Below, piece after piece: positions 5,672 through 36,112 of a stretch of DNA of 64,000 bases. The DNA is taken from contig NZ_CP021355.1 in NCBI RefSeq assembly GCF_003130705.1, positions 868,001 through 932,000 on the forward strand. Direction: 5' to 3'. The stretch comes from Rhodococcus oxybenzonivorans. GTDB taxonomy: Bacteria; Actinomycetota; Actinomycetes; Mycobacteriales; Mycobacteriaceae. Made by a program: the position numbers and the translations under genes. Within the stretch, counting starts at the first letter, position 1, and every line of letters begins with the position of its first letter. The notes under the pieces were generated by a model. That model saw only the letters and a list, made by a program, of their open reading frames with translations. It did not search any database and was not told the origin of the DNA.

Positions 5672-6976
5672 TCAATCAGGGCGGGGGCGGTCCCCCTCAG
5701 CCGAGGGAAGTGCGGCGAACGGCGGAAGTCGCCGGCCGGCGAGAATAACGAACAACGCCGCGGTGACCTGGGCACCGACCATCACGGACCAGGCAGCCGA
5801 GTACGAACTCGTCGCGATGATCACTCCCATGATGACCGGTCCGATCACGCCACCGATGAAGTACGCACTTTGGACGATGCCGGAGGCCCGAGCCACCGCG
5901 TGCGGGTATCGGCACATGACACCATGAACAAGCAGTGAAATCCACGACCACCCTGGGCCGAGGGCGAGAAGAAGTCCGAGGACATATGTCCAGGAAGCCG
6001 ACGAAGCGAGGAATCCGAAACCGACAGCCCCAGCCAACATCATCAGCCAACACATCGGGAACGGGTCCCAACCTCGTCGATCAACGAGTGCGGCACACAC
6101 CAGTCGCAACACGATGGACGCACCCGCTCCGGCAGATACTGCAAGGGAAGCGTGATCGGAGTCCATCCCGGCTGCGGGAGCTGCCAGGACCATGAACGCG
6201 GTGGCGGCGCCCAACGCCAGATTCCCGGCCAGGACACCCACCATCATCACCGCCAGCGGACGCAGGGACGGAGCCCGCGGATTCGAGTCGGTGTGGTCCG
6301 CGGCCGGTGGGGTCGGTGTGGTCGGTGGTGTTTCGGCCGCGCTTTTCACCAACGGGGTGTGTAGGACAGCAGCGATTCCGCTCAGCACGAATGCGCATCG
6401 CCATCCGATCGAACTTTCGAATGCCGACCCGACTATCCCAGCCAACATCAAAGCTGCCACCGGACCGGTGCTGGCCACCGCAAAGGCGGATGCTCGGCGG
6501 CGGGCCGGCACGGCCGACATGATCACCATGTTCATGGCAGGAGTGGCCAATGCGGGGGCGCACCCGGCGAGCCCGAGGGTGATTACCAGCGTGCCGGCAG
6601 AACGTGCGCTGCTGGCCAGCAAGATGCAGAGTAGGAAAGCGAGGATGCCGGCGACCCGCAGCGCGCGAACCGGTCCCCATATATTCGCTTTAGAGGCCAT
6701 CGGATAGGCCGCGACCGAGGCCACCAGCCAGAAAGCCGAAAACGCGAATCCGAGCACTACCGGGTCGAGTTGCAGATCGGACGCGATGGCGCCCGGCATC
6801 GAACTGACCAGGAAGCTGGGAAGGACGCACACAGCGTTCAGCAGGACCGCCACCAGTACCTGGCGGGCAGCGTTCCGTGTAACCGGCGAAGCCGGCGTCA
6901 CGGGTGGTGCTGTCCCGTCGTCGATGCGGTCCCGGCCGACTGGCTGCATCAGTTCACCGAACCGGTCACTGGTCAC
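5672..6976 (-). CDS. MFS transporter
   Basis: Integral membrane permease of 434 residues with about twelve hydrophobic segments, beginning after a polar N-terminus of ~35 residues (first helix VLVAVLLNAVCVLPSFLVSS). Family-typical small-residue-rich helices and a loop with RRRASAF are visible. The annotated start is a GTG inside a short tandem repeat of the unit CACTGGT (plus strand 6966-6988); an in-frame ATG at 6949 (MQPVGRD) is an alternative. It lies downstream of ribBA and a luciferase-like oxidoreductase on the same strand, so it may move the substrate of that monooxygenase or a flavin precursor, but a hairpin lies between it and ribBA. The substrate cannot be read from sequence. Confidence 0.85.
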   Translation of the reverse strand: MTSDRFGELMQPVGRDRIDDGTAPPVTPASPVTRNAARQVLVAVLLNAVCVLPSFLVSSMPGAIASDLQLDPVVLGFAFSAFWLVASVAAYPMASKANIWGPVRALRVAGILAFLLCILLASSARSAGTLVITLGLAGCAPALATPAMNMVIMSAVPARRRASAFAVASTGPVAALMLAGIVGSAFESSIGWRCAFVLSGIAAVLHTPLVKSAAETPPTTPTPPAADHTDSNPRAPSLRPLAVMMVGVLAGNLALGAATAFMVLAAPAAGMDSDHASLAVSAGAGASIVLRLVCAALVDRRGWDPFPMCWLMMLAGAVGFGFLASSASWTYVLGLLLALGPGWSWISLLVHGVMCRYPHAVARASGIVQSAYFIGGVIGPVIMGVIIATSSYSAAWSVMVGAQVTAALFVILAGRRLPPFAALPSAEGDRPRPD

Positions 6977-7139: not shown

Positions 7140-8411
7140 TTATGACACCTCACTGCCGTTGGCGAACAGGGGGAAACCCGAGCCGAACTCGTGGTCGAGC
7201 CGGGTGCGTTTCGTCGTGAGGTATGCGATGTTCTCCGGATTCGGGGTGATGACCAATGGTTCGCGTGCGACGACACGTACGTCGTGCGCCGCCAGACCGC
7301 GACTCTTGGCGGGGTTGTTGCTCATCAACCGAACGTCGCGCACGCCGAGGTCTCGTAGGATTTCGGTGCTGACACCGTAGTCGCGACTGTCAACCGGGAG
7401 ACCCTGCATGAGGTTGGCGTCCACGGTGTCCAGCCCGGCATCCTGCAGGGTGTAGGCGCGCAGTTTGTGGCTGAGGCCGATACCCCGGCCCTCATGCCCA
7501 CGGAGGTACACGATCACACCGCGTCCCGCTTCACCGATCTTGGCCATTGCCCTGTCGAGCTGCTCCCCGCAGTCGCAACGCAGAGATGCAAAGACATCTC
7601 CTGTCAGGCACTCGGAGTGAACCCGGACCAGTACCGGCTCTGCGCCCACCGATGTCGGCTCAGTCGATGCTTGATCGACTTCGCCGCAAACCAGAGCGAC
7701 GTGCTCGACACCGTCAACGTGGGATCGATAGTTGATCGCGGTAAATTCTCCGTGCGGAGTGGGTACCCGCCCTTCCGCCTCGCGATGAATCGAGGCTTCG
7801 GTGGCGCGGCGATAGTCCACGATATCGGCGACGGTAATCATGGTCAGCCCATGAGTCTCTGCGAATCGGATCAGTTCCGGTCGGCGTGCCATGGCGCCGT
7901 CATCGTTGGTTACTTCCGCCAGCACCCCCGCCGGTGCGAGCCCGGCAAGTCTGCACAAATCCACGGCGGACTCGGTATGCCCGGTGCGTTGCAGGACACC
8001 TCCCGCACGGGCGCGCAAAGGAAAGATGTGACCGGGCCGAGACAAGTCTTCGGGTTGCGTCGCCGAATCCACCAGAGCTCGGATGGTCATGGCTCTGTCG
8101 GTTGCCGACACCCCGGTGCCGCACGTTTTCGAATCAACCGACACTGTGAACGCTGTGCCGCGTGGATCGTCGCTGTCGGTAACCATGAGCGGCAACCGCA
8201 GTTGGTCGGCGCGTTCGTCGGGAATGCCGACACAAAGTATGCCGCTGGTGTGCCGGATCATGAAAGCAATGGTCTCCGGCGTGGCCTTCTCGGCGGCCAT
8301 GATCAGGTCGCCCTCATTCTCGCGGTCCTCGTCGTCTACCACGAGAACCATGCGCCCGCGCCGTAGTTCGGCTAGCGCGGTCTCGATCACCTCCCAGGAG
8401 CCACCCACCAT
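7140..8411 (-). CDS. ribBA: Bifunctional DHBP synthase / GTP cyclohydrolase II
   Basis: Makes both starting compounds of riboflavin: 3,4-dihydroxy-2-butanone 4-phosphate from ribulose 5-phosphate and the pyrimidine precursor from GTP. The N-terminal half has the RibB signature DDEDRENEGD and GHTESAVDL. The C-terminal half has the RibA zinc-ligand motif (HSECLTGDVFASLRCDCGEQ) and the GTP-site motif RGHEGRGIG. I chose the ATG at 8411 (MVGGSWEVIE), which has AAAGGAC six bases upstream and fits the family N-terminus. An ATG at 8501 in the same frame also has AAAGGAC and would add a 30-residue polar extension. It lies 3' of a luciferase-like flavoprotein on the same strand, so it may be a dedicated flavin-supply paralogue rather than the housekeeping copy (inference). 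Confidence 0.93.
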   Translation of the reverse strand: MVGGSWEVIETALAELRRGRMVLVVDDEDRENEGDLIMAAEKATPETIAFMIRHTSGILCVGIPDERADQLRLPLMVTDSDDPRGTAFTVSVDSKTCGTGVSATDRAMTIRALVDSATQPEDLSRPGHIFPLRARAGGVLQRTGHTESAVDLCRLAGLAPAGVLAEVTNDDGAMARRPELIRFAETHGLTMITVADIVDYRRATEASIHREAEGRVPTPHGEFTAINYRSHVDGVEHVALVCGEVDQASTEPTSVGAEPVLVRVHSECLTGDVFASLRCDCGEQLDRAMAKIGEAGRGVIVYLRGHEGRGIGLSHKLRAYTLQDAGLDTVDANLMQGLPVDSRDYGVSTEILRDLGVRDVRLMSNNPAKSRGLAAHDVRVVAREPLVITPNPENIAYLTTKRTRLDHEFGSGFPLFANGSEVS

Positions 8412-8595: not shown

Positions 8596-9669
8596 TTAGA
8601 GATCTTTGAACGCCGGCACGACTTTCTCGCCGAACAACTTCATGCTTGCCTTCACCTCATCGAAGGACTGACCGCCGTAAGAGCACAGGAACATCTGCTT
8701 GTAATCGCCGATCAGTTCGCGACGCATCTTGATTGTCTCGATGATCTGGTCGGGCGTGCCCTTCAACTGCAGGTCGGAGAATGCCTGGAAGCCAGCTTCT
8801 CGGCCGACCTCCCGCAGCATGTCGGCGCTATTCTGGTAGCTCTCATAGTTGTGAGTTTTTCCGAAGTGCTTGCCATCGAACTCGTAGTGGTCAACCATGG
8901 CGTTGTAAAAGGCACCCAGATATTTCTGCATGTGTGCCTCGACGTGGTCAGCATCCTCGTGGCAGTAAGCAAAGTCGAGAAGCACCGGCGCCGGCGGCTC
9001 CGTCTTGTGCGTCTCGCGATACTTCTCACGCCACTCGTCAAACACTGCGGCCTGCTGCTCGATCGGATACTGGTAGTTGAAGCACATGAGCGAGCCGCCG
9101 AACTCGGCGGCCTGCATTACCGATGGAGGTGACATCGCGATCGTGTGGAGGCGATCGTCCCAACTGTGGTCGGATCGTGGGTGGATGGTCGCGCGAGCCT
9201 GCTGGTAGTGCTTACCGTCGAACTTCTCAACGACGCCGTCACGCAGACCGCTTAACAGCATCTCGGCAGCCTCATCGTAGCGACCGCGCGAGTCTTCCAT
9301 CTCAATGCCGAAGGTTTCGTACTCGACACGGGCCAACCCACGGCCGACACCGAGAAGCACGCGGCCGTCACTCATGATGTCGAGAATGTTCAGGCGCTCG
9401 ACGAGGCGCACGGGATCATGGTGCCATGGCAGGATGATCGCTCCAGTGCCGAGCTGAATTGTCGAGGTGCGTGCAGCGATATGGTTGAGCACATCAAGGT
9501 TGTCCGGCGACATGCAGTACGGCGCATCGAAGTGGTGCTCCGGAGCCCACACCGAATCTAGGCCGCACTCCTCTGCATAGACGCCGAGGTCCACTTCGGC
9601 CTTGAACAACTCGGCCTCACTCATCGACTTGCCGGCCTGCGCGAATAGCAGAAGCGTTCCGAAATGCAT
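8596..9669 (-). CDS. Luciferase-like (LLM class) flavin-dependent monooxygenase
   Basis: A 357-residue bacterial-luciferase-fold protein: MHFGTLLLF start, WAPEHHF, IQLGTGAIILPWHHDPVRLVERLNI-type core (split here for length), GRVLLGVGRG, and a C-terminal GTPDQI motif typical of the family. It uses reduced FMN or F420 to oxidise a small organic substrate in the cytosol. AAGGAGAATTG sits directly before the ATG. It is the first gene of a minus-strand run with ribBA (184 bp to the chosen ribBA start, 73 bp to the longest ORF) and an MFS permease, which fits an FMN-dependent catabolic or detoxifying unit. The substrate is unknown. Confidence 0.88.
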   Translation of the reverse strand: MHFGTLLLFAQAGKSMSEAELFKAEVDLGVYAEECGLDSVWAPEHHFDAPYCMSPDNLDVLNHIAARTSTIQLGTGAIILPWHHDPVRLVERLNILDIMSDGRVLLGVGRGLARVEYETFGIEMEDSRGRYDEAAEMLLSGLRDGVVEKFDGKHYQQARATIHPRSDHSWDDRLHTIAMSPPSVMQAAEFGGSLMCFNYQYPIEQQAAVFDEWREKYRETHKTEPPAPVLLDFAYCHEDADHVEAHMQKYLGAFYNAMVDHYEFDGKHFGKTHNYESYQNSADMLREVGREAGFQAFSDLQLKGTPDQIIETIKMRRELIGDYKQMFLCSYGGQSFDEVKASMKLFGEKVVPAFKDL

Positions 9670-10187
9670 TCAATTCTCCTTCTCGGTAGATTCTCCAAAA
9701 GGACCGAACACACGAACAGTCAATTGTGCGGAGGGTCCGGGCCAGGTGGAGTCGGATCGTGTACCGAGTGGATCGGTGTGCAGCCGCCGTGGTGGGCGGT
9801 GCTTTGATCGGGACTGCACCTGGCCTGCATCAAGAGTGATGCACATCACGCGTCTGGCCAACCGAGGGCACTACGGTTAAAGATGCGGACCACGTCCGGG
9901 GAAAACACGGACAATGATGCCGACGGTCATCCCGGATGTGGCGGCGCCACCACACGATTTTTGCGGCCACATCCTCCGTTCCCCGACGTGCACGGTAAGC
10001 CGATCGCCACGCCGTGGCGCACTCGCGCAGGAAAAAGCAGCCTCGAATGGTCCGCCACCCGCACGGGCGGCGGAATCACCGCCGCTCGGCCGCATAACCG
10101 GCAGGAAGCCAGAGGCACTCCACCGCACAACGATTCGAGTACTACCTCGGACGCGAGACGAGGCATTCGGCGCGTAGATTGCACGGC
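9670..10187. other. Divergent intergenic region
   Basis: 518 bases between the luciferase-like gene (minus) and the crotonase gene (plus). It should hold both promoters. I looked for an FMN riboswitch that could control the ribBA unit and saw no recognisable RFN core. No convincing gene is present; the overlapping open frames here lack ribosome sites and family features. Confidence 0.5.
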
Positions 10188-11009
10188 ATGAATGAAGAGA
10201 GAGTTCGTATCCGAGTAGGTGACAACGGTGTCGCAACGGTTGCGATGGTGCGCCGGGACAAGCACAACGCGTTGGATCAGGCGATGTTTGAAGGTCTGCG
10301 GCGCGCCGCCAGTCAACTGGCAGATGACCGGAAAATTCGGGCAGTGGTGCTTTACGGAGAAGGCAAGAGTTTCTGCTCGGGTTTGGATATCCCGAGCTTC
10401 CTCGCCGACCCTGTTGAAGGTATTGAGGCCCTGCTCGTCCGTGAACACGGACATGCGGCCAACTTCGCGCAACGCGCCGCCTATGACTGGTCCCGCGTTC
10501 CCGTGCCGGTGATCGCCGCAATCAGTGGTCACTGTTTTGGGGGAGGCATGCAGATCGCACTGGGTGCTGACATTCGTATCGCCGCACCCGACTCGAGTCT
10601 GTCCATCATGGAGGTCAAATGGGGGCTCGTGCCGGACATGGCCATCACGCAGTCGCTGCCGCGACTTGTGGCCATCGATGTCGCCAAGGAACTTACCTTT
10701 ACCGGTCGCATCGTCTCGGGCGCCGAAGGTGAAGCACTTGGTCTGGTCACCCGCACGGCAGACGACCCGCTCGCCTCTGCACTGGCTCTCGCAGAGGAGA
10801 TCGCTCAGAAATCACCCGATGCGGTCCGCGCGGCCAAGCATCTCTACGACCAGACGTGGACCGGTACTGACGCTGCCGCAGCCCTTGTTCTCGAGACCGA
10901 TCTGCAAAGAAAACTTCACGGAAGCCCAAATCAGATCGCCGCTGTCACTGCCGGCATGGCGAAGCAGCCTCCGGTATTCGTAGATCCCGACCATGATCGG
11001 CTGCAGTAG
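10188..11009 (+). CDS. Enoyl-CoA hydratase/isomerase family protein (crotonase)
   Basis: A 273-residue crotonase-fold enzyme. The oxyanion-hole segments are visible as KSFCSGLDI and GHCFGGGMQIALGADIRIA, followed by EVKWGLVPDM, where the catalytic acidic residue of many members lies. It acts on acyl-CoA thioesters. The ATG at 10188 (MNEERVRIRV) is preferred over the TTG at 10179. It stands alone, divergent from the luciferase-like unit. Which acyl-CoA it uses, and whether it is a hydratase or isomerase, cannot be decided from sequence. Confidence 0.88.
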   Translation: MNEERVRIRVGDNGVATVAMVRRDKHNALDQAMFEGLRRAASQLADDRKIRAVVLYGEGKSFCSGLDIPSFLADPVEGIEALLVREHGHAANFAQRAAYDWSRVPVPVIAAISGHCFGGGMQIALGADIRIAAPDSSLSIMEVKWGLVPDMAITQSLPRLVAIDVAKELTFTGRIVSGAEGEALGLVTRTADDPLASALALAEEIAQKSPDAVRAAKHLYDQTWTGTDAAAALVLETDLQRKLHGSPNQIAAVTAGMAKQPPVFVDPDHDRLQ

Positions 11010-18976: not shown

Positions 18977-20921
18977 TCAGCGGTCGAGCCGGTGGAGGTG
19001 ATCGGTCAGGGCGTCTGCAACGCGGTGGTGGCGAGCAGCTTCGTCGGGCCAGCCGCGGTCGCAGGCATCGGCTTCGAGGGCCTGGACGTCGGTGCGTTGC
19101 GCCTCGAGCGCGTCGTGGAACTCGGGTCCGGTGACGAAGTTGTCGCAGGTCTCGCAGATGTTGGCATAGGGACAGGCTCCGGCCGCCTCGTGCCGAGAAC
19201 AGTAGCCGTGGGCGAGGCGGGTTTTGAGCATCTCGCTGCCGAGCCAGCTGACGGTGTCGGGAACGATCGGCTTGCCGACCGGGGTAAGGGTGAACCGGCG
19301 GCGCATCTTGCCCATGGCCTGGTCGTAGGCGTCGCGCAACGTCGGCGATGCCAGGGTGGCGTAACGGAGAGTCATCTGAGGAGTGACGTGCCCGAGCAGC
19401 GCCATCAACGCCTGCAGGCTCATACCGGCATTGGCGAGCTCGGTCGCCCAGGTATGCCGCAGCTGATGTGGGGTGACGATCAGCGGCTTGCCGCCGGCGC
19501 CGCGCAGCCCGGACCGTTCGACGGCGGTGAGCAGCCCGTTGCGCAGCCGGGTCTGGCCGAGGCGGCGGCCGTGCGCGACGAACAGGAAATCGGTCAAAGC
19601 TCCTGTTCGCGGATGTGGCAGCGGCCGGCAGACGCCGCGCCCGCTGGTCCACTCGTCCAACGCCGAGACCGTGGCCGCCGAGAGCGGCACCATGCGCTCG
19701 GTGGCGAGTTTGCCCAGCGGCACCTTCAGCCAGGTCCCGGCCGGGCCGTAGTCCATCACGCTGCCGAGCTCGAGATCGAGCAGTTCCCCGACCCGCAACC
19801 CCGCCCCGCGGAGCGCCGTCAACCCGATGCGGGCGAACGAATCCTCCAACCCGGCAACAGCGTTCATCACCACGCCGTCGACGTCGGGTGCCAGTGCGCG
19901 GGGCAACGGCTGGTCGAGCTTGGGGACGTCGGCGGCGAAGACCAGCCGGCGCGGCGGCGCCTGCTCCCAGCCCCATTCGGTGAGATCGTCGAGTAAGTTG
20001 CGCAGGCTCAGCACCGTCGATTGGATCACGGCCCTCGAGATGGTGCGACCGGCGCCGGCGGCGGTGCGTTGCCCGCGCCAGGTGCGGGTGCGGTTCCAGA
20101 CGAGGAAGCCCTCGATGTGACTGCGGTCCAGCTCGCGCAGACAGGTCAGGTCGCGGTGGTGTGTGGTGAGGTAGTCCGCGAACGGCAGCAGGTCGTTGAT
20201 CAGTGATTCGACGGATTTCGGGCGAAGCACGGCGGCTCGGACGGTCACATAGCGCAACAACGTCTCGCGGATCGCGTCTGCCATCGGCAGCGTCGGCGAA
20301 CCGTTGGGCGTAGCTGCGGGCCCAGACGCGGCGCCGTGGTGGAATATCGACGATGCGGGCCTCGAACAGCACCTGCCGCAGACCCGCGATCCGATTGCGG
20401 TAGGCCCGCCGTGACGACGGCGGAATAGCTTGTGTTGCAGCCAATGCGGCATCGAAATCGTCGACGGTGTCGTTGGTGATGCCGCTGACGAGTCCGCCAT
20501 GCCAGGCGAGCAGCACCGCCAGGCACTCGCCGAGGACGGTCTCGACCCACGACGGTGCCCAGCCCAAGGCCAGTCCGGCGGTCCGGGCCGCGGCGAACCC
20601 GTCCGGGTCGCGGGCCTCGATGGCACTCCCGAGTCCGGTGAGGTTCTTGACGGCGGCGAACTCGAGGTCCAGTCGCAGCTCGTCTCGACCGATGACGTGA
20701 CACAACAGGGGCCACGCCCCGGTGCTGCGGAGTTCGGTAAGCCGGTCCGAGGCAGGCCGGGCCATCCATTCCCGCAGATCCGGGTGCTCGACCAGGAATG
20801 CGGTTGCGATGCGGGTGCGGCCGCGGACGGCTCTTCCGCCCAGCCCGAGGGTGGCGACGTGGTCGAGATAGCCGGCCAGCACCGTATCCGGGTCGAATAC
20901 GGTCGGCCATGCCGTGGTCAT
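18977..20921 (-). pseudogene. Large tyrosine recombinase (TnpB-like), frameshifted
   Basis: The reading frame from ATG 20921 (MTTAWPTVFDPDTVLAGYL) makes sense down to ...SYAQRFADAA near 20,285. The homology then continues one base out of frame from MADAIRETLLRYVTV (ATG 20283) to the stop at 18977. The C-terminal part holds the catalytic domain (LRGAGLRVGELLDLEL, HQLRHTWATELANAG, LGHVTPQMTLRYATL) and a terminal Cys cluster (CPYANICETC), as in TnpB proteins. Either a one-base indel has split the gene or two polypeptides are made. It overlaps the upstream recombinase by ATGA. Confidence 0.7.
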
Positions 20922-21979
20922 CGCCGTGCCCCGGCGAGACTGGCTCGGGCGGCGCCGTATTCGGCGGCGAGCTGCTCGATCGACAGGTGCACGTACTCGG
21001 CGGTGGTCTCCGGGGACGCGTGCCCCATCAGCTCCCGCAGCACCATCAGATCGATTCCCGCGGAGGCGAGTTCGGTGCCGTAGGTGTGTCGCAGCCGGTG
21101 CGGACGCACCCGACCCGCGCCGGACAGGTTCCGGTGCCGCCGGAACAATGATCGCAGCCCGGCCTCGGTCACCGGCGCCCCCACGGTGGGGCCCCGCAGC
21201 ACGACGAAGCACTCCGGTGTGACCACCCCGGGTGGCCGCTCGAGGCGCAGATAGGCCGATAGTTCGGTGAAGAACACCGCATCGACCGGTACCACACGCT
21301 CCTTCGAACCCTTGCCGAGCACCCGCAGACGGCGTCGACCGAAATCCACCTCCGCCAACCGGAGCGACCGCACCTCGGCGCTTCGCAGACCCCCGAGCAG
21401 CATCGCCCACACCATCGCCCGGTCCCGATGGGTGCGCAGCGACGAGACGAACACGTCCACCGCGTCGGCGTCGAGGGATTCGGGCAGCAACCGCGGCTGG
21501 CGCACCAGCCGGCCTCCGGCCCGGGGCCGGCCGGGCCCGAGATGCCCGAGCAAACCCCGCCCCGACGGACGTAACCCTTGACCCCGCCGGGGTGAGGGCA
21601 CCGGATTGTCGGCGCGCACCCCGGTCATCACCAGGTACTCGAACAACGCCCGCACCGCCGCGACCCGCCGGTTGATCGTCGACGCCGCCGCCGTGCGCTG
21701 CCGGCCGTTCCTCGTCGTTGCGCCGGGTCGGGGATCACGGCGCACGCCCTGCCAGTCGATCCACTCGAACACGGTCACCGGCGTCACCGCCGCCAATCCG
21801 AGATCGCGGGCGATCAGGAACCGCGCCAGGTTCAGCACATCGAACGCATACGCCCGCACCGTCGCCACGCTGTACGCGCGCCCGGCCAGATGTTTGAGGA
21901 ACGCGTTCGCCGCCGCGCAACCCTCCCACTCGCCGACCACCACATAACCGTCGTCCACCGCGTGCACCCGAACGGCCAT
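20918..21979 (-). CDS. Tyrosine recombinase (TnpA-like)
   Basis: 353 residues from ATG 21979, preceded by GAGAGGAGCAGGCG. An N-terminal SAM-like core-binding domain (NAFLKHLAGRAYSVATVRAY) is followed by a catalytic domain with Arg in GGLRSAEVRSLRLAEV, the box II HRLRHTYGTELASAG, and the Tyr nucleophile in GHASPETTAEYVHLS. It is the first gene of the two-recombinase element and is intact. The long in-frame upstream extension is IS256 sequence read in another frame and was excluded. Confidence 0.88.
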   Translation of the reverse strand: MAVRVHAVDDGYVVVGEWEGCAAANAFLKHLAGRAYSVATVRAYAFDVLNLARFLIARDLGLAAVTPVTVFEWIDWQGVRRDPRPGATTRNGRQRTAAASTINRRVAAVRALFEYLVMTGVRADNPVPSPRRGQGLRPSGRGLLGHLGPGRPRAGGRLVRQPRLLPESLDADAVDVFVSSLRTHRDRAMVWAMLLGGLRSAEVRSLRLAEVDFGRRRLRVLGKGSKERVVPVDAVFFTELSAYLRLERPPGVVTPECFVVLRGPTVGAPVTEAGLRSLFRRHRNLSGAGRVRPHRLRHTYGTELASAGIDLMVLRELMGHASPETTAEYVHLSIEQLAAEYGAARASLAGARR

Positions 21980-22094
21980 CGCCTGCTCCTCTCCGATCGA
22001 GCCGCCACCGTCAGCATGCGCCCCATCCGGCCATCGGCCCCGGACCTCAGGCCGCGGACAGAATCGTGTCGCCCGAGAGCCGGTTAACCGATCG

Positions 22095-22339
22095 CGGATT
22101 GTTGCTCCAGATCTGTTTCCAGATCTGCTTGGGAAACGCGGTGAACGCGAGCAGATCCACCCGGGCTGCATCGAGGTGGTCGGCGACCTTCGGCAACTTC
22201 TCCGACAGTGCGCCGATGATTCGATCATATTGGGCATGAACAGAATCCGCGTCGGGTTGGTCGTAGACCGAGTGCAACAGCGTCTTCACCCAAGGCCACG
22301 AGTTCTTCGGGGTCTGGGACATGAGATTCGTCGAGTAAT
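22095..22339 (-). pseudogene. IS256-family transposase, middle part (right copy)
   Basis: Minus-strand remnant MSQTPKNSWPWVKTLLHSVY ... AFPKQIWKQIWSNNP, cut at the same codon as the left copy. It differs from it at about eight residues (for example KT/RA, II/VI, K/R). Confidence 0.83.
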
Positions 22340-25389: not shown

Positions 25390-25713
25390 CACTCTGCTGG
25401 ACGCAACCCCCTGCGAACACCACCACGGATGTGAATCTGGGGGTGGATCGGCTCTCTTAGTTCGCACAGGAGCATATCGAGACATTCCGACCAAATCGGC
25501 CACTTGATCATCGGGCCGGCGTGGGCCGTTCATATTTGCCCGCAGCACTGAGGACGAACGACCTTGATGCCGGGCGAGGATCCGCCGCATGCTGAGAGCC
25601 CGGGTCGACGAGGGGTGAAGAAGTGTGGTTCAGGTTGTGGGCGCCTCCCGGTGTTCTGGTCGGGGAGCAACTTTGTGTGGTGGCCTGTGCCGGCGCCCGG
25701 GTTCGGGGGGCGT
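25390..25713. other. Region right of the IS nest, no clear gene
   Basis: About 320 bases between the IS256 terminus and the next plausible short gene. Open frames exist, but none has a ribosome site or recognisable family. The bases before 25,714 may encode the remnant of a larger protein whose 5' part was lost when the IS nest formed (inference). Confidence 0.35.
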
Positions 25714-25806
25714 ATGGAGCTCCGCAGTGACACCGGGTCGGTGGCGTGGCGCACGGTCGCCGACGTCCAGGCCACCGGCCCCACCCCACTGCGAGCGGCG
25801 CTGTGA
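25714..25806 (+). CDS. Short ORF / C-terminal remnant
   Basis: 30 codons from ATG 25714 behind a GGGGGG run, ending PTPLRAAL. It overlaps the following ORF as TGATG. The text (VAWRTVADVQATGPTPLRAA) looks like genuine coding sequence but could be the tail of a truncated gene whose frame opens further upstream. Not recognised. Confidence 0.35.
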   Translation: MELRSDTGSVAWRTVADVQATGPTPLRAAL

Positions 25807-25871
25807 TGAACACCGACAGCTGGACCGAACGATGGCCAGAACCATTCAAGGTCGCGGTCGGTCTGCTTTGA
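25806..25871 (+). CDS. 21-residue ORF coupled by TGATG
   Basis: Begins at the A of the preceding stop (TGATG) and encodes a short Trp-containing peptide (MNTDSWTERWPEPFK...) ending seven bases before the DUF4429-like gene. It is too short for certainty; the stop-start overlap and position are the only support. Confidence 0.3.
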   Translation: MNTDSWTERWPEPFKVAVGLL

Positions 25872-25878
25872 TATTCCG

Positions 25879-26634
25879 ATGGCCGTTCACACATACACCG
25901 GCGCGGGGTCCACCGTCTCGTTCGATGACGTCTCGGGGACTGTCACGTTTGAGCACACACACTGGCGGCAGCCACGCAATAAGCGGGCGGCGTCTCCGTG
26001 GACCGTTCCGGTAGGCGCGATCGAAGGCATTTCCTGGCGTGAGGCCACTGCGTCCAAGCCTGCCCAGATGAGGTTGCGCCTCCGCGGACGCGTAGGGCAC
26101 AGCAAGGACGGCCGAGCTGACTTCAACTACATCACCGGCAAAGATGAGATTGGGGTCTTGGTTACAGCGATCAACGCCGCTGTCCAAATCGCTGAGCCAG
26201 TACTCGGATTCGGGGACGAGCTGACCCCGCGACAGGCACCCGCGCCGCCGGCGGTGTCAGTCAACGTCCCTGTCGCTGGCGGCCCGCCGGCGCCCGACAA
26301 GGAGGAGTTCGGCGGATTCAAACTGAACGGAAAGATCCTTACCTACAAAGGCGTGCGATATGGCGTCGCCGGTATGAAGGCGACGGTAGACATCGGGGGG
26401 ACCCAGCGACGCACGACCCTCACACGCGTTGTCGTCGGGACCGCAATCGACCCCGGTAAAGGGACGCTCATCGGGGCGATGGCGAAGAAGCAGACGAGCT
26501 ATGTCTACCTGACGGTCGAGTTCCCGAATGGAACGGAGATCATGGTCGAAGCGCCCGGCAACTATGAGTTGTTCGCTCGCAGTTTCGCATCGGCGCTCAA
26601 CTCTGCCAGCCGCTCGGCGTCGCGCTCGGGCTAG
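25879..26634 (+). CDS. DUF4429-like protein (PH-fold suspected)
   Basis: A 251-residue soluble protein with two beta-rich halves. The first (HTYTGAGSTVSFDDVSGTVT, TVPVGAIEGISWREAT, MRLRLRGRVGH) reads like the PH-like repeat of DUF4429 proteins. A Pro/Ala linker (~residues 115-140) leads to a second half beginning KEEFGGFKLNGKILTYKGVR that resembles another such unit. The C-terminus is Ser/Arg-rich. The gene is convergent with, and overlaps by 4 bases, the last peptide gene of the Trp-rich array. Function unknown; the DUF assignment is from memory of the family pattern. Confidence 0.65.
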   Translation: MAVHTYTGAGSTVSFDDVSGTVTFEHTHWRQPRNKRAASPWTVPVGAIEGISWREATASKPAQMRLRLRGRVGHSKDGRADFNYITGKDEIGVLVTAINAAVQIAEPVLGFGDELTPRQAPAPPAVSVNVPVAGGPPAPDKEEFGGFKLNGKILTYKGVRYGVAGMKATVDIGGTQRRTTLTRVVVGTAIDPGKGTLIGAMAKKQTSYVYLTVEFPNGTEIMVEAPGNYELFARSFASALNSASRSASRSG

Positions 26635-26726
26635 GATGCTGATCGGATAAGGATCCGTGTCCGAGCTTGCGACGCTGCGAGCGGAAGCCACATCATGGAG
26701 CCAAGGTCGGGCAGTAGGCCGATCAT
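26631..26726 (-). CDS. Array peptide 5 (MIG-LPDL N-terminus, divergent tail)
   Basis: 31 residues from ATG 26726, preceded by AAGGAG at the usual distance. It starts MIGLLPDL, like peptides 3 and 4, but the C-terminal half is unrelated (Ala/Arg/Ser-rich, ending RSAS) and lacks the WWN-F ending. This member looks recombined or frame-lost. It overlaps the 3' end of the convergent DUF4429-like gene by 4 bases. Confidence 0.5.
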   Translation of the reverse strand: MIGLLPDLGSMMWLPLAASQARTRILIRSAS

Positions 26727-26736
26727 TGCGCGCTCC

Positions 26737-26841
26737 TTAGAACGGATTCCACCAGTTGGCGATTTGGGTAAGGATGGGGAACCAGAAGGCCGATTCCCCT
26801 TCCGAAAACCAGCCGGGGAGGTCAGGCAGATTGCCGATCAT
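26737..26841 (-). CDS. Array peptide 4 (Trp-rich micropeptide)
   Basis: 34 residues. GAGGAG lies 6 bases before ATG 26841 and overlaps the stop of peptide 3. It begins MIGNLPDLPGWF and ends QIANWWNPF. No Lys, Arg or Cys; net acidic; hydrophobic and aromatic. The ends match peptides 1 and 3, which shows repeated duplication of one gene followed by divergence of the centre. Function unknown. Confidence 0.7.
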   Translation of the reverse strand: MIGNLPDLPGWFSEGESAFWFPILTQIANWWNPF

Positions 26842-26850
26842 CTCGACTCC

Positions 26851-26955
26851 TCAGAACTGATTCCACCAGGTAGCGAATGCGATCCATGCGGAGCCCGGAA
26901 ATAGATAGGGCGCCGAGAAGATGTCGACGGGCAGGTCGGGCAGAAATCCAATCAT
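26851..26955 (-). CDS. Array peptide 3 (Trp-rich micropeptide)
   Basis: 34 residues. Its ATG overlaps the stop of peptide 2 as TGATG, so translation is coupled. It begins MIGFLPDLPVDIF and ends IAFATWWNQF. The middle is Pro/Tyr/Phe-rich (SAPYLFPGSAW). It is uncharged apart from two Asp. This is the clearest match to the consensus MIG-x-LPDLP ... FA-x-WWNQF. Confidence 0.72.
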   Translation of the reverse strand: MIGFLPDLPVDIFSAPYLFPGSAWIAFATWWNQF

Positions 26956-27062
26956 CAGTTCATCGCCTGCCACCACTCGACGATCGGCCACCAGACCGGC
27001 ATGGTCACGGTTGCGAACCACACGTAGAAGTCACCGATTGGGCCATACATTCCGGGTGACAT
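26955..27062 (-). CDS. Array peptide 2 (Trp-rich micropeptide, variant)
   Basis: 35 residues from ATG 27062, three bases past the stop of peptide 1, without its own good ribosome site, so probably translated by reinitiation. It begins MSPGMYGPIGDFYVWF and ends PIVEWWQAMN: five Trp, two of them as the WW pair near the C-terminus, but without the MIG/LPDLP start. It looks like a diverged sibling. Confidence 0.6.
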   Translation of the reverse strand: MSPGMYGPIGDFYVWFATVTMPVWWPIVEWWQAMN

Positions 27063-27064
27063 GG

Positions 27065-27163
27065 CTAGAACTGATTCCACCAGTTGGCGAAGTTGACGTA
27101 CCAAACACCCGGTGGCCAGATCGGGTCGCCGAACACTGGGATGTCAAACACGATGCCGATCAT
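27065..27163 (-). CDS. Array peptide 1 (Trp-rich micropeptide)
   Basis: 32 residues; GGAGGACCAGGAGACAGTC precedes ATG 27163. It begins MIGIVFDIPVFGDPIW and ends VNFANWWNQF. Four Trp, four Phe, two Asp and no basic residue. It is the first gene of the five-peptide array, 108 bases downstream of the recombinase/HTH operon on the same strand. The size and tandem layout recall leaderless multi-peptide bacteriocins, but those are cationic, so the analogy is weak. Confidence 0.7.
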   Translation of the reverse strand: MIGIVFDIPVFGDPIWPPGVWYVNFANWWNQF

Positions 27164-27340
27164 GACTGTCTCCTGGTCCTCCCGACCTGCCTGACGTATC
27201 GCTGACCTGGCAAAGCCCGTTACCCAGACAGGGCCCACGCCACCCTAATCGGAGGACGGCCCAGGACGCATCACCTGCGTACTCGCCGCCGACGTCCTGT
27301 CGGAGAAGGCAGCCTAGAGCCGCCTCCGCTCATCTTGCCG

Positions 27341-27475
27341 TCAGTCGTTGACCTTGAGCCGTGACGCGTAGGCAAGTGCGTCCTGGAACGCGTCGTCCGC
27401 CGCATCCAGGGCGCGATCGACGCCGCCCAGGCGCAGCAGCACCGCATCGAGCGCCTCTGTAGCAACGCAGGCCAT
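27341..27475 (-). CDS. 44-residue helical ORF
   Basis: ATG 27475 to TGA 27341, encoding MACVATEALDAVLLRLGGVD... with a heptad-like acidic helix (RALDAADDAFQDALAYASRL). Composition and helical periodicity look like a real small protein. No ribosome site is seen. It overlaps another open frame (27271-27567, start ATGA-overlapping the gene upstream) whose text degenerates into Arg-rich shadow; a frameshift could join the two. Confidence 0.35.
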   Translation of the reverse strand: MACVATEALDAVLLRLGGVDRALDAADDAFQDALAYASRLKVND

Positions 27476-27563
27476 GCGAATAACCAACTTACTACTGGTA
27501 ACCCCGCGTATTCGGTCCGTGCGTATGTGGACTCCGAATGATGACGGTCGTTAGGCGTGAGTT

Positions 27564-27803
27564 TCATCTGTCAACGGTCGCTCGGCGGCGCAGGACATTC
27601 TGTGTGCGCTCGGACACCTCCTGGAACGGTGCCAGCTCGTCCATATCCGCGTCATTCATGATGGACTCCACACCAGTGGTAGCCAGGTATCGGACGCCTC
27701 CACGGTTCACGTACGGATACCAGCACGGACCGGTACTTCGATACACCACACCCTCCGGAACTTTCCTCCAGCTGTTCCAGGTGCCCTGATTTGCGTCAGT
27801 CAT
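27564..27803 (-). CDS. Hypothetical protein coupled to recombinase gene
   Basis: 79 residues from ATG 27803, preceded by GAAAGGAACAAA; the ATG overlaps the recombinase stop (ATGA). Polar and soluble, with an aromatic stretch (VVYRSTGPCWYPYVNRGGVR) and an acidic helix (MNDADMDELAPFQEVSER). No family recognised. Being the fourth link in an ATGA chain argues that it is a real gene of the recombinase operon. Confidence 0.55.
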   Translation of the reverse strand: MTDANQGTWNSWRKVPEGVVYRSTGPCWYPYVNRGGVRYLATTGVESIMNDADMDELAPFQEVSERTQNVLRRRATVDR

Positions 27804-28806
27804 TTTGTTCCTTTCATCTGTGGTCCCGCGGCGTATCCGGCCCAAGGTTGCGCCACTTCAGCGGCGTGGCGATGTGCGATCTGCTGGCTGTAGCCGAGCA
27901 TGTCCGCCACGACCGGAGCAGGCACCTCCGACACCAATGTTCGGATCGCTGTGGTGCGAGTACCGAGGAGATCGATACCGAGGGTGCGCAACCGGTTCAT
28001 GATCGTGTTCGGGTGCAGGTGACGGCCGGGCGTGCGGCCGGGGAAGAGCCACTCCGAGTCACCATCTCGGACCGCATGCAGGTTGGGGCGTTGTGCGAGG
28101 TGTTCGGTGAGCATGCCCGCGAACGGCGTCGGAATGGGCGCAGGATGGGTGCCGAGGGAAAGATATGGACCGTCTGACGCCAGGAGGACGTCGGACGTGC
28201 GATGGGATGCGATCCTCGCGATCGTTGAGCGTAGAGGAGCAGCAGTGTGCCGGCGATCCGATAGGGCAGGGATTCGCTGTTACCGGTCAGCAGTTCACGC
28301 AGCCAGGCGATCCGTTGGTCCTGGGTGATGGTGGGGGAGGAGCGGGCGCTGCGGTGGTTGATCAGGATGCCGGTGTTGACCCGCGCCCGTCGAGACCAGA
28401 CGAAGAACGTTCGGATGCCGTGGCGGGTGGTTGGTCCAGCGGTAAGCCATTCATCGACGTCGCGTTGGTTGCATGTCGAGGCGACACGGCCGTGTGCTTC
28501 GAGGAGCCAGTCCAAGAACTTGATCGTCTCGGCAATCTCCTGCTTGGCCGCGTGGACCGGACCGCGCGTCGAGGTTCCGGTGGCGGAGATAACGCGGATC
28601 CGCCGAAGGTGGTGCCATGTAGCGAACTGTTCGACGGGTTGCCGGACGGCCGCGTCGCCGATGGCATCGAGCTTGACCCGCAGCCAGTGTTCGAAGCGGG
28701 CGAGATAGGCGTCGCGTTGGGGTAGGAGACCCTGATGCTCGAGCAGACCCCGGAGGTGGGACGCTCGATGGCCGTGTCCGAGCTCGTCGATCCCTTCGTG
28801 ACTCAT
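27800..28806 (-). pseudogene. Recombinase/integrase-like protein, frameshifted
   Basis: Starts MSHEGIDELGHGHRASHLRG at 28806 (ATGA overlap with the HTH gene) and runs to LLLLYAQR near 28,225. It resumes one base out of frame as IARIASHRTSDVLLASDGPY through LFPGRTPGRHLHPNTIMNRL to the stop at 27,800. The family is the common actinobacterial integrase-like protein paired with an XRE gene; the C-terminus lacks a canonical Tyr motif (VVADMLGYSQQIAHRHAAE). A single-base deletion explains the break. Confidence 0.7.
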
Positions 28807-29030
28807 TGAGATCTCGCCAACCGCCAGCTTGCGCAACATCTCTCGTAGAGCGCTGCGACCATCTGCAGCGAAACACGTTCGGGGCGCTGGGTGACCAACC
28901 GGTAGACCTGGGGGCGGGAGAGGTCGATTCCACGTTCATGCAGTAGGGGAATCAGGTCGGTGCTGTTGTGCTGCCCGCGCGCGGCCATGAGTTCTGCCAG
29001 CCGCCAGGTGTAGTCGACGGTGCGTTTCAC
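28803..29030 (-). CDS. XRE-type HTH regulator, C-terminus probably altered
   Basis: 75 residues: MKRTVDYTWRLAELMAARGQ, then the HTH region (STDLIPLLHERGIDLSRPQV, YRLVTQRPERVSLQMVAALY). The tail after MVAALYERCC does not look like the rest of the family and may be frame-shifted. ATGA overlaps on both sides place it between two recombinase genes, a recurrent three-gene module in actinobacterial mobile elements (from memory). Confidence 0.68.
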   Translation of the reverse strand: MKRTVDYTWRLAELMAARGQHNSTDLIPLLHERGIDLSRPQVYRLVTQRPERVSLQMVAALYERCCASWRLARSQ

Positions 29031-29461
29031 GACATTCTTCCTTCGTCGGAGAGTGCGGCATCCATCGCGGCGTCGAGGGCACGACGCAACGTGCGGATCC
29101 GGAAGTCACTGGACACGCAGGTGTAGAGGGCGGTGCTGCTGGCGTGGTCGTGACCCATCTGCTGTTGCACGAACAGAGCGTCCCAGCCGTCCTCGATGAG
29201 GTGGGTGGCGTAGGAACGACGCAGCGAGTGCAAGTCGAGCCCGGGCTCGAGGTTCAGTTCAATGCAATTCTCTGCACTTGTCAACAAGTTCGGGATTCGT
29301 TGGCAAAGCGCATGGATCGCAGCAAGTTTAGCTGCGAGTCGCGTGATTACACCGAGTGTGAGACAGACCCGGTAGAAACTGTCGAGCGCAAAATCGGTGA
29401 AGACGAGACCACCCGCGAAGCCCAGGGGCGTTCGCTCCCGAGGAGCGGCCGGACACTCCAT
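29027..29461 (-). pseudogene. Tyrosine recombinase, C-terminal remnant
   Basis: Only the last third is recognisable: LDLHSLRRSYATHLIEDGWD (box II H-x-x-R), FVQQQMGHDHASSTALYTCV (Tyr nucleophile). The first ~70 residues are unrelated text, so the 5' half of the gene is missing; a broken comB-like gene follows immediately on the other strand. Confidence 0.7.
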
Positions 29462-29508
29462 CGGTGCGTCCGCACGTAGAAGTGTCCAGATATGCCAGAG
29501 TGTGTGGG

Positions 29509-30015
29509 GTGAATCGCGAGCATCGACATGACTATTCTCTTCGCTTCGAGTGGGGATTGTCTGAGGCCACCGCAGTGGCGTCCGACGCCGACGTCGCGGT
29601 TATCGTCGATGTTCTGTCCTTCACCACCACCCTGTCAGTCGCGATCGATGCTGGTATCGAGGTGCTTCCCTATCGATGGCGGGACGCTTCTGCGGTGCAA
29701 TATGCCGCAGCCCAAGATGCTGTGCTGGCTGTTGGTAGGAGTGTTGCAACGCCGGGTTCGATCAGTCTGTCGCCGGGCACGATTCGTTCGGCGCAGGGGG
29801 TGGATCGACTCGTCCTTCCGTCCCCGGACGGTTCATCGATAGCGTACGAGCTGAACTCCTCCGTGGGGGTATGTATCGGAGCTTCGCTACGCCCGTGCGG
29901 TCGCGAGATGGATCTCCGAAAACTACACGAAGGAAACGGTCGTGGCGGTGATTGCAGCCGGTGAGAAGTGGCCGGATGACACCTTGCGGCCGGCGGTGGA
30001 AGACCACTGGGGCTG
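29509..30015 (+). pseudogene. ComB-like 2-phosphosulfolactate phosphatase, broken
   Basis: From GTG 29509 the text matches the ComB family (VAVIVDVLSFTTTLSVAIDA, SLSPGTIRSAQGVDRLVLPS, GVCIGASLR). A one-base loss near 29,887 shifts the frame; homology resumes as ARAVARWISENYTKETVVAV ... KWPDDTLRPAVEDHWG and stops abruptly at ~30,015 where recombinase sequence of opposite strand begins. The gene is frameshifted and cut. In intact form the family removes phosphate from 2-phosphosulfolactate or a related compound. Confidence 0.68.
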
Positions 30016-30600
30016 CCGCATCGGTGCACGCCGCAGCCGGGGCGACGGGTCTATCGGGCTCAGCTGTTGCATCCGTCGGCGATCGGGTGCGGCCGGGACC
30101 GGATTGACCAGTGGGCCGCGGCCGAACATGCGGTGGAACTCGTAGAACGAGTACACCACGGTCAACGCATGGTTGATCGTCGACGGCGCGTACCCCGCAG
30201 GTAGGACCGGTTTCCCGGTCTTGAGATTCACTGACCCCGGCTGCGACACCGACAGACTTGAGCGCCGGTGCTGCGGGTTGACCGCTGATCGCAGCCACCC
30301 CACCATCACCTCGACGTCCTCGCGAGTCGCGCGATCCCACCGCAGCCCGAGCACTGTCAGGACCTTCCACCACCGCAGCAGATCGTGGGCATAAGACCGC
30401 ACCGTCAACGCACTGACGTCGGAGATGACCAGACCCGACAAATACACCGAGACGGGCTCGACCTCCACCCCGTCGACCACCACCACGTACGGCACCACAG
30501 CCGGAGGCGCCGCGCGCTGCACGCTCCCCACCGCCGGCAACTCGATGCGTCTTCGCGAACCGCTCGCCGCAGCTCGTCCATCTACCCACCCCCGTAGCAT
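30010..30600 (-). pseudogene. Tyrosine recombinase, N-terminal remnant
   Basis: Core-binding (SAM-like) domain of a phage-type integrase: VYLSGLVISDVSALTVRSYA, LLRWWKVLTVLGLRWDRATR, STINHALTVVYSFYEFHRMF. It ends at PIDPSPRLRRAPMRQP, where comB-like sequence begins; no catalytic domain follows. It may be the other half of a different recombinase from the one at 29,027, since the family texture differs. Confidence 0.65.
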
Positions 30601-34923: not shown

Positions 34924-35565
34924 TCACAGTGAATGTGGGATGGGGAGAACGGTGATCCCGGTGTCCTGTTGAAGTTCCTGCATCAGGTTGCGGCGCTCGA
35001 TGAGGGGGTTGGTCGCGATGACCGAGTAGACGGGTGATTGTGCCCCCTCGGCGGGGCGGGCGCCGGCGGTATCGAACAACGCGAGGCACGCGTGGGTGTG
35101 GGCGAGGTCGTGCCGTGCCCAGTACCGGATGCCGTCGAACCCTGCTGCGTGGAGCGCGGATGCCCACGTCTGGGTCAGTTGGTAGTTCCCGGTCGTGAAG
35201 ATCTCGGCGGTGACCCCAAACTGGGCGGCCGTGTTCGAGGTCAGGTCCGCCAGCATCCGGTCGGTGGTTACCTGCATGCGCGAGACCGCGCGGGCGGTGA
35301 GTTCGGTACTCGGGATCACCCGCATCCCACCCCAGGTTTCGAGGAGGGTGATCTGCTCGGATTCGGCGGTGTAGCAGGTGCCCTGGGTGTCGGCGAGGTC
35401 GAACCTGCCGTACCCGGCGTTGGCGAACCACAGCGGTCCGTGTTCAGCGCCGTGACACCGGAACACCTCCGTCCCGGCGGGGCAGAGCCAAGACGGGAAC
35501 CGGTCGTGCAGGTGTTCCGGTGGTGAGGGTGCGAGCAGGTGCAGAGCAGTGCGGGGTGAACTCAC
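34924..35565 (-). CDS. RES-domain toxin
   Basis: 213 residues from a GTG overlapping the antitoxin stop (GTGA). RES-family features are visible: TEVFRCHG near the start, PLWFANAGYGRFDLADTQGT, CYTAESEQITLLETWGG with the conserved Glu. Characterised RES toxins (MbcT, ParT) destroy or modify NAD+ or a metabolic enzyme. Length and order (Xre-like antitoxin first, RES second) match the type II RES-Xre systems. The longer upstream open frame belongs to another frame of the antitoxin gene and was excluded. Confidence 0.82.
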   Translation of the reverse strand: MSSPRTALHLLAPSPPEHLHDRFPSWLCPAGTEVFRCHGAEHGPLWFANAGYGRFDLADTQGTCYTAESEQITLLETWGGMRVIPSTELTARAVSRMQVTTDRMLADLTSNTAAQFGVTAEIFTTGNYQLTQTWASALHAAGFDGIRYWARHDLAHTHACLALFDTAGARPAEGAQSPVYSVIATNPLIERRNLMQELQQDTGITVLPIPHSL

Positions 35566-36068
35566 GCGGCGAGCCGCCCGGTGGCCGCACGAGCAAGATC
35601 GACCACTGAAGGCCCATCCCCGTCGAGCAACGCCTGCCGCGGCGTCCTGCCGCCGAGCTCGGGTTGTTCGGTCATCATCCAGGACGCGGCCATCCACCCG
35701 GTACCGTCGGCGTCCGCCCACACCCGCAGGACATCCTTGACCCCGAGGATGGGGCGGGCCGGAGCGGCACCGTCGAACCCCGCGACGGAGTATCCGGCGG
35801 AGCCGTCCTCGGCCTTGAGGCGCAGGACTCGATGATCACGCACCGCCTGGCTTAGCGCCTGCTTCGTCCAGCCGGTCACCTCGAGGACCTGCTTGTGGGT
35901 GAGGATCGCCCCGATGTGGTTCTCCCAGGCGCGGCGGGCCTTCAGCCCGGAGAGCACACCGCGGATCCCGTTCTCGACGTACGCGGCGTCGCCCGGGTTC
36001 AGCTCGGTCTGGTCGAGACCGCTGGCGGCGAGCTCGGCGGCCACGATATCCCGCAGTGGTGTGCTCAT
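35562..36068 (-). CDS. Xre/MbcA-ParS-type antitoxin
   Basis: 168 residues from ATG 36068 (MSTPLRDIVAAEL). A central helical DNA-binding region (ILTHKQVLEVTGWTKQALSQ) precedes a C-terminal toxin-binding domain with WMMTEQPELGGRTPRQALLD and DGDGPSVVDLARAA, the pattern of the Xre-MbcA-ParS antitoxin C-terminus. It is translationally coupled to the RES toxin. Direct repeats upstream probably form its own operator. Confidence 0.8.
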   Translation of the reverse strand: MSTPLRDIVAAELAASGLDQTELNPGDAAYVENGIRGVLSGLKARRAWENHIGAILTHKQVLEVTGWTKQALSQAVRDHRVLRLKAEDGSAGYSVAGFDGAAPARPILGVKDVLRVWADADGTGWMAASWMMTEQPELGGRTPRQALLDGDGPSVVDLARAATGRLAA

Positions 36069-36079
36069 GCCTTGATCAT

Positions 36080-36112
36080 TCTCGGTCAACGAGGTCAAGT
36101 CAACCAGGTCAA
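36080..36112 (-). promoter_or_regulatory. Repeat operator/promoter of the RES-Xre operon
   Basis: Three GGTCAA copies (36084-36089, 36093-36098, 36107-36112 on plus) with an intervening GTCAACC give, on the coding strand, TTGACCTGGTTGACTTGACC followed by TCGTTGACC. They lie 12-44 bases before the antitoxin ATG, as expected for an autoregulated toxin-antitoxin operator. Confidence 0.55.

Follow-up and report, generated by a model that had tools for sequence, protein, structure and literature searches.

Arrays of tryptophan-rich micropeptide genes in Rhodococcus, often preceded by a SigD-type promoter element and possibly serving the mycomembrane

Are five open reading frames (ORFs) of 31 to 35 codons, set almost end to end on one strand, real genes, and what could their products do? 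The question is raised by a 64,000-nucleotide stretch of Rhodococcus oxybenzonivorans (contig NZ_CP021355.1, positions 868,001 to 932,000, called the window below and numbered from its first letter), which carries such a row of ORFs at 27163-26631. The window lies on a contig of 984,201 bases, and the same genome also has a 6.6-Mb contig. We find that the row belongs to a family of Trp-rich micropeptide genes arranged in arrays, and that it is preceded by an element of the type used by the extracytoplasmic function (ECF) sigma factor SigD. The best explanation, to which we give an even chance, is a SigD-controlled micropeptide operon whose products would go to the mycomembrane and work there like PorA and PorH of Corynebacterium, without being homologous to them.

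A family of micropeptide genes in arrays

All five ORFs are on the minus strand. Micropeptide 1 (MIGIVFDIPVFGDPIWPPGVWYVNFANWWNQF, 32 amino acids (aa), 27163-27065) has its ribosome site in GGACCAGGAGACAGTC, and is followed by micropeptide 2 (MSPGMYGPIGDFYVWFATVTMPVWWPIVEWWQAMN, 35 aa, 27062-26955), a divergent, coupled member, by micropeptide 3 (MIGFLPDLPVDIFSAPYLFPGSAWIAFATWWNQF, 34 aa, 26955-26851), by micropeptide 4 (MIGNLPDLPGWFSEGESAFWFPILTQIANWWNPF, 34 aa, 26841-26737), and by the truncated micropeptide 5 (31 aa, 26726-26631), in which the first ~17 residues are those of the family and the remainder derives from unrelated DNA. The gaps between each stop and the next start are 2, −1, 9 and 10 nt, such that ORF 2 starts 2 nt past the stop of ORF 1 and the start of ORF 3 overlaps the stop of ORF 2 by 1 nt; good Shine-Dalgarno sites stand before ORFs 1, 4 and 5. 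Peptides 1, 3, 4 and 5 start with MIG, and peptides 1, 3 and 4 end in A-x-WWN-(Q/P)-F. An earlier examination of the letters alone (the sequence-only reading) had described five minus-strand ORFs with ribosome sites, coupling and shared ends, and all of these are present where it had placed them.

The array is real, and peptides 1-4 are intact genes. It is not a product of chance, since peptides 1-4 and the start of 5 recur at 97% identity on pDK4 (locus L005), where a single listed gene, a frame of 56 aa over peptide 3, falls within the array, and since related arrays occur at unrelated loci. Peptides 1, 3 and 4 are, at the level of sequence, under purifying selection, as measured by the ratio of replacement to synonymous changes per site (pN/pS), which in comparisons with the window is 0-0.19 for the three of them. 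Among 15 orthologous pairs of peptide 1, 14 gave ratios of 0-0.33 and one was identical; 3 pairs of peptide 3 gave 0-0.11, and 6 pairs of peptide 4 gave five ratios of 0-0.19 and one identity. For peptide 2 the only valid comparison, between the window and L005, has 3 synonymous and 0 replacement changes. Two further subfamilies gave 0-0.22 inside the genus and 0.41-0.50 against a locus outside it (chromosomal subfamily, 15 pairs), and 0.07-0.50 in 6 pairs (VFDLP subfamily); one further pair gave 0.15. The relatives of peptide 5 gave 0.80 and 1.44, and a third pair had no synonymous change; constraint on this member is not demonstrated because of these ratios and of the few changes overall. 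Duplication under selection, proposed in the sequence-only reading, is thus borne out by the tandem paralogues and by the excess of synonymous over amino-acid change per site in the orthologues of peptides 1, 3 and 4, for which arrays elsewhere and unequal replacement and synonymous rates (dN and dS) were both found; the dN/dS below 1 looked for there does not extend to the relatives of peptide 5.

The tail of peptide 5 has a separate origin. Window 26675-27400 corresponds to pDK4 at 97% DNA identity, and window 25711-26675 to positions 9301-10268 of R. opacus pCP135 (L006) at 93%, where the array ends at 6169. A deletion or rearrangement junction, to which no strand applies, therefore lies at 26675..26676, and ~3.1 kb of the pCP135 layout is absent from the window. 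Peptide 5 of the window is thus a stump that a deletion at about 26675 has joined to unrelated sequence, which explains its odd tail and its Arg residues. The complete relative on pDK4 reads MIGLLPDLGYMMWLPLADPWNNFVDWFNQL, and the peptide is whole in L005, L058 and L059. That peptide 5 keeps only the start of the family is consequently correct for the peptide as printed, and wrong as a family trait, since this is a truncated copy with intact relatives. A DUF4429 protein (PF14472, E 1.5e-6) is encoded at window 25879-26634, convergent with the array, and its gene forms in pCP135 the far side of the ~3.1 kb missing here. Tyrosine recombinases (PF00589/PF02899, two long and others fragmentary) lie at window 18977-22237 and 27800-30600, surrounded by transposase-like ORFs (by eye); the array stands in a rearranged stretch.

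Matches to the family were found in Rhodococcus and, more sparsely, in its taxonomic family. A tblastn search with peptide 4 over 72,556 plasmid records (E ≤ 10) returned 8 records, 7 of them from Rhodococcus and 3 at 100% identity, and in none of the 8 does the match coincide with an annotated gene. Searched with an aligned set of the five peptides (E ≤ 1), the genus gave matches in 21 of 28 genomes, many of them weak, and a 17-member alignment (E ≤ 0.01) matched 18 of 301 genomes of the taxonomic family, 13 in the same genus and 5 in three others according to the grouping of the search tool. In samples of the order (150 genomes) and of the class (296 genomes), both of which include genomes of the same family, only the genome of origin was matched at E ≤ 0.001. 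A scan of genome contigs with one subfamily gave 6 loci, all in Rhodococcus, and the spread seen so far is confined to one family of mycolic-acid bacteria. Homologous arrays, which the sequence-only reading had left to be sought, or single members are thus present on both plasmids and chromosomes of Rhodococcus, with several copies on contigs of 6.4-8.7 Mb and others on plasmids or megaplasmids.

We inspected 26 loci closely, namely the window, five plasmid loci and twenty genome stretches. At least two listed members are present in 15 of them and one member in the remaining loci, and those outside the genus are all single members or doubtful pairs. Arrays are spaced by overlaps of 1-4 nt or gaps of ~2-10 nt. 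In L073 a second member lies at 7690-7794. The R. oxybenzonivorans genome itself has three array loci. Orthologues of peptide 1 are found in L005, L058, L059, L060 and L061, those of peptides 2 and 3 in L005 and L058, and those of peptide 4 in L005, L059 and L006. In high-GC genomes, arrays of ~30-codon genes are mostly missed by gene callers despite conservation between plasmid and chromosome.

Pfam, NCBIfam (five peptides, E ≤ 1) and PHROGs gave no match for the window peptides, and scans of these peptides and their companions in other arrays against Pfam, NCBIfam, PHROGs and PADLOC (the last covering peptides 1-4) returned nothing. A literature search for their strings brought up one unrelated paper, and nothing on the family appeared among the open-licence papers listed on small ORFs, SigD or the mycomembrane in Rhodococcus. 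A PDB profile search aligned positions 2-11 with a streptococcal surface protein (E 0.00035), which we attribute to chance, since the match spans ten positions only. MIGYVFDIPVFG resembles LIGYVFDFLG of PorA, a likeness that was considered and not counted as homology; the PorA sequence used was confirmed as NF033925 at 83.5 bits. That the family and its translation are genuine is close to certain.

Among the roles first considered for the array was that of an inhibitor borne by a phage or mobile element, which is not supported by the searches: only 2 of 50,697 phage records match, weakly (E 3 and 5), in a search that did not extend to viral contigs, no PHROG does, and several copies reside on the 6.4-8.7 Mb contigs. 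The same evidence bears on peptides for plasmid-borne surface exclusion, decoy or blocking of phage receptors. Many copies are on plasmids or megaplasmids, some near ParB-like and DnaB-like genes, and the variable middles would suit such a role; the copies on large contigs, the lack of a PADLOC match for peptides 1-4 and the lack of homologues in PHROGs and, beyond the weak matches, in phage records make it improbable.

A SigD-type promoter element before the arrays

Upstream of micropeptide 1, on the minus strand at 27198..27223, lies a SigD-type ECF promoter, with a −35 element GTAACG (27223-27218), a 16-nt spacer and a −10 element CGAT (27201-27198), and the first start codon follows 34 nt past the −10 element. 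The published consensus is GTAAC(A/G) with GAT; the same study gives GTAAC-15 nt-CTCGAT upstream of rsdA and, for Rhodococcus, reports that sigD is preceded by a putative SigD promoter (PMC6338062). The window element GTAACG-N16-CGAT fits this consensus (−35 GTAAC(A/G), ~15-17 nt, −10 (C)GAT), and GTAACG-N16-CGATA is common to upstream regions in different places. A strict match, GTAAC(G/A)-N15-17-CGAT within 600 nt upstream, is present in 13 of the 26 loci, and in 18 if one relaxed base is allowed; elsewhere on both strands of these loci (890,992 bases) there are 4 strict matches, and 26 relaxed ones including the strict. Some of the upstream regions are homologous to each other and form ~14 groups, of which 5 have the strict element and 9 the strict or the relaxed one.

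Across the R. oxybenzonivorans genome there are 10 copies of GTAACG-N15-17-CGATA, against 2 of the reversed control, and each of its three array loci has one of the ten upstream. The form GTAACG-N16-CGAT is present 16 times, against 3 for its reversed control. One of these elements lies 19 nt before the TTG of a sigD-like frame, which matches NF007230 (titled ShbA by NCBIfam) with 298.7 bits against a cut-off of 209, and whose best PDB matches are an "ECF sigma factor" (9isn, E 5.4e-43) and, second, a "Probable RNA polymerase sigma-D factor" (3vep, E 6.6e-23). Another lies 236 nt before an Ag85-type mycolyltransferase (1dqy, E 3.5e-69), and a GTAACG-N15-17-CGATA match is found upstream of a secretory lipase and another upstream of a protein that has a peptidoglycan-binding domain. 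Judging from these elements, the array is very probably under SigD control. No report of micropeptide operons as SigD targets was found among the listings and passages of open-licence papers that were searched, and the link between this promoter and the array is new here.

A stress-type promoter before tandem ~30-aa hydrophobic peptides would also be expected of type I toxin-antitoxin-like toxins. The 34-nt leader, the good ribosome sites and the acidic, Lys-free peptides speak against such toxins, and over 25500-28500 no Rfam family is above threshold (one sub-threshold snoRNA match has E 0.9), a search that a new antisense RNA would escape; we regard this as very improbable.

Where the peptides may work

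The 30 distinct MIG-type peptides have a mean length of 32.5 aa, with 11.9% Trp, 11.2% Phe and 9.5% Pro, and a mean grand average of hydropathy (GRAVY) of 0.35. None contains Lys, 18 contain neither Lys nor Arg, and all 30 are net acidic; all 30, which were found with models favouring such ends, finish in Phe or Leu. The absence of basic residues noted in the sequence-only reading holds for peptides 1-4 and not for peptide 5, which as printed has three Arg.

Other arrays contain further types of members. Seven consecutive ORFs make up WAY2 (L007), and five make up C3 (L051/L057) of the home genome; the leading gene of both L007 and L057 codes for a protein of 65 aa that has, by eye, a Sec-type signal (MRSIRTMAVLGTTALMMVLLTGTTSASPPSPDP...). 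This protein has 6 matches at E ≤ 0.1 among 5.8 billion proteins, four of them full-length and below 1e-23, one of which is named from Rhodococcus. It is followed by small coupled peptides, such as MPNSPWDIFPYN...GGGS and MSNWLWPWSIV...GGAS. Among the 15 members with a stop overlapping the following start, nine have a C-terminal Ser and a Gly at −1 or −2 (7 strictly as G-x-S). These loci contain 4484 further overlapping open frames, of which 59 have such an ending. The nine tails are not independent, because they fall into about five related groups. The remaining six members comprise peptide 2, counted in three loci, a MIG peptide, and two members with the endings GAA and EWFL. Since O-mycoloylation sites are reported in Ser/Gly-rich stretches (PMC11066868), the C-terminal Gly-Ser tails of the coupled members are candidate sites.

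Tandem leaderless genes with divergent paralogues, patchy carriage on plasmids and a member with a Sec signal are also what one might see if the peptides were secreted antimicrobials or intercellular signals, similar to leaderless bacteriocins and released on envelope damage. Leaderless bacteriocins are cationic, and judged on charge alone the Lys-free, net acidic MIG peptides (0/30 and 30/30) are unlikely to be such. With crude gene calling and no assignment of functions, no protein cluster recurs next to more than 3 of the 26 loci, and a transporter or immunity gene common to the loci was not apparent; we consider this explanation rather improbable. As neighbouring genes vary by locus, it is the array rather than its surroundings that forms the conserved unit.

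A stronger, though still unlikely, alternative is that SigD would drive small inner-membrane regulators or protectants under stress, tiny hydrophobic peptides that bind and tune an envelope enzyme, protease or sensor, in the manner of small membrane proteins that envelope regulators control in other bacteria. It agrees with the SigD-type promoter, with the absence of a visible signal peptide in most members and with the Trp-rich, mildly hydrophobic composition (mean GRAVY 0.35). However, such regulators are usually single genes with one long transmembrane helix, whereas here up to seven different peptides share an array, Pro, Gly and Asp occur in their middles, and two arrays have a member with a Sec-type signal.

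The idea of small membrane peptides, raised in the sequence-only reading, may now take a more specific form, that of SigD-regulated envelope peptides. To our knowledge, few outer-membrane proteins of mycolic-acid bacteria are well studied. PorH (57 aa) and PorA (45 aa) are reported to be encoded in one operon, to lack an identifiable signal sequence, to reside in the mycomembrane and to be O-mycoloylated at S56 and S15, respectively, and the route of PorA, PorH and ProtX across the plasma membrane is described as unclear (PMC12632848). In C. glutamicum, SigD governs mycomembrane genes, the one for the tiny, leaderless PorH among them. porH is reported to belong to the SigD regulon and to rise with sigD overexpression (PMC5508688), and porH, cmt1 and ProtX are listed as regulon members in a study that describes the pathway as required for surface exposure of PorH (PMC11175481). 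A leaderless peptide of 40 aa is reported to form a channel (PMC3792995). We lean towards an extracytoplasmic place for the peptides, and rate their combined role as a mycomembrane assembly or pore evenly balanced.

The sequence itself establishes that the ORFs are coding, the family they form, the array layout and the promoter element. Induction, export, location, assembly and function, which we infer, could proceed as follows. On disturbed assembly of mycomembrane or arabinogalactan, RNA polymerase with the ECF factor SigD would transcribe the array from GTAACG-N16-CGAT, and translational coupling would yield acidic, Trp/Phe/Pro-rich peptides of ~26-39 residues, the MIG-type members being Lys-free. 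Like PorA and PorH, most of the peptides would be exported without a Sec signal, and some operons would add one Sec-secreted Trp-rich member. The peptides would assemble together in the mycomembrane with their conserved aromatic ends at the lipid interface and with variable middles that set partner or channel specificity, and the product would be small pores, or plugs and stabilisers.

Several observations weigh against this mycomembrane role, which is argued from regulation and analogy only. No promoter was found within the tested limits in 8 of the 26 loci (L007, L065, L068, L069, L070, L072, L074 and L075), among them all five loci outside the genus (L068-L070, L072 and L075); in L007 an IS256 gene ends 53 nt before the first ORF, and its insertion may have displaced the −35 element. 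Several other matches in the home genome are followed by genes that have no obvious part in the envelope, or by no clear gene. The PorA model NF033925 was matched in 0 of 28 genomes of the genus, with a positive C. glutamicum control and no search made with a PorH model, and the window peptides have no NCBIfam match and no detectable homology to PorA. The MIG peptides cannot each be O-mycoloylated, because Ser is absent from 15 of 30, 8 of which lack Thr as well, and the window's own array has no Gly-Ser-tailed member. Finally, Rhodococcus is reported to possess porins already, of the MspA type and with Sec signals (PMC9233653).

A wider version of the mycomembrane proposal, which we offer only tentatively, is that Rhodococcus builds modular multi-component outer-membrane assemblies from ~30-residue Trp-rich peptides. 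SigD-driven arrays would mix MIG-x-PDLP...WWNxF, MPNSPWDIF...GGGS, WLWPWSIV...GGAS and Sec-exported types, some would be anchored by O-mycoloylation of the C-terminal Gly-Ser tail, and plasmids would swap subunits between strains, giving a pore or plug system independent of PorA/PorH and MspA. A family that annotation overlooks, and whose promoter links it to the stress response of the mycomembrane, offers a ready set of candidates for the question of how leaderless proteins cross the plasma membrane.

Neighbouring genes and comparison with known systems

Around the array, the window also encodes a lipoprotein-like protein with a GmrSD_C domain (PF07510, 36360-37073), and a look-alike, judged by eye and domain, adjoins the micropeptide locus on the C4 replicon (L056, 8941-9696). 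At 34924-36098, a 178-aa protein without Pfam match precedes on the same strand a RES-domain protein (PF08808, E 8.9e-18), a pair that resembles RES/Xre-type toxin-antitoxin systems (partner judged by eye). The chromosomal loci L066, L067 and L074 start behind an apparent tRNA 3′ end, which reads TTCGAATCCTGCCGAGGGCAC in L066 and L074; for L067 the flank is shared by blastn, and L074 keeps the −10 element and lacks the −35. In L062 and L075, from different genera, the single member adjoins a LysE-like gene (by eye), which hints at an old chromosomal position.

Leaderless multi-peptide bacteriocins share with the array the tandem small leaderless genes, and differ from it in charge, theirs being cationic and the MIG peptides net acidic (30/30) with Lys in 0/30. 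The MspA-type porins of Rhodococcus (PorARc, PorARr and PorBRr) are similar in occurring in the genus in its broad sense, in being outer-membrane channels and, in R. ruber, in their paired genes, but the R. ruber precursors, reported at 213 and 267 aa with Sec signals, are far larger than 30-aa peptides (PMC9233653). With the SigD regulon of Mycobacteriales the arrays share the −35 and −10 elements and their spacing, and in this genome that element also precedes the sigD-like gene and the Ag85-type mycolyltransferase.

The closest comparison is with PorA, PorH and ProtX of Corynebacterium, which are tiny (40-57 aa), leaderless, encoded by adjacent genes, in the SigD regulon (porH and ProtX) and found in mycolic-acid hosts (PMC12632848, PMC11175481, PMC5508688, PMC3792995). 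The MIG peptides are likewise net acidic and without a Sec signal (by eye), but at a mean of 32.5 aa they fall below the 40-57 range. Their genes are adjacent, with at least two members in 15 of 26 loci as read from the array layout, and 13 (strict) or 18 (relaxed) of the 26 have the SigD-type element. PorA is also net acidic. In contrast to PorA and PorH, array members are shorter, rich in Trp and Pro and up to seven in number, and half of the MIG type have no Ser. Size, lack of a leader, acidity, layout, spread within one family and the SigD element thus match PorA/PorH, whereas sequence and the PorA model do not, and for this reason we describe the micropeptides as probably working like that class and do not file them in its family.

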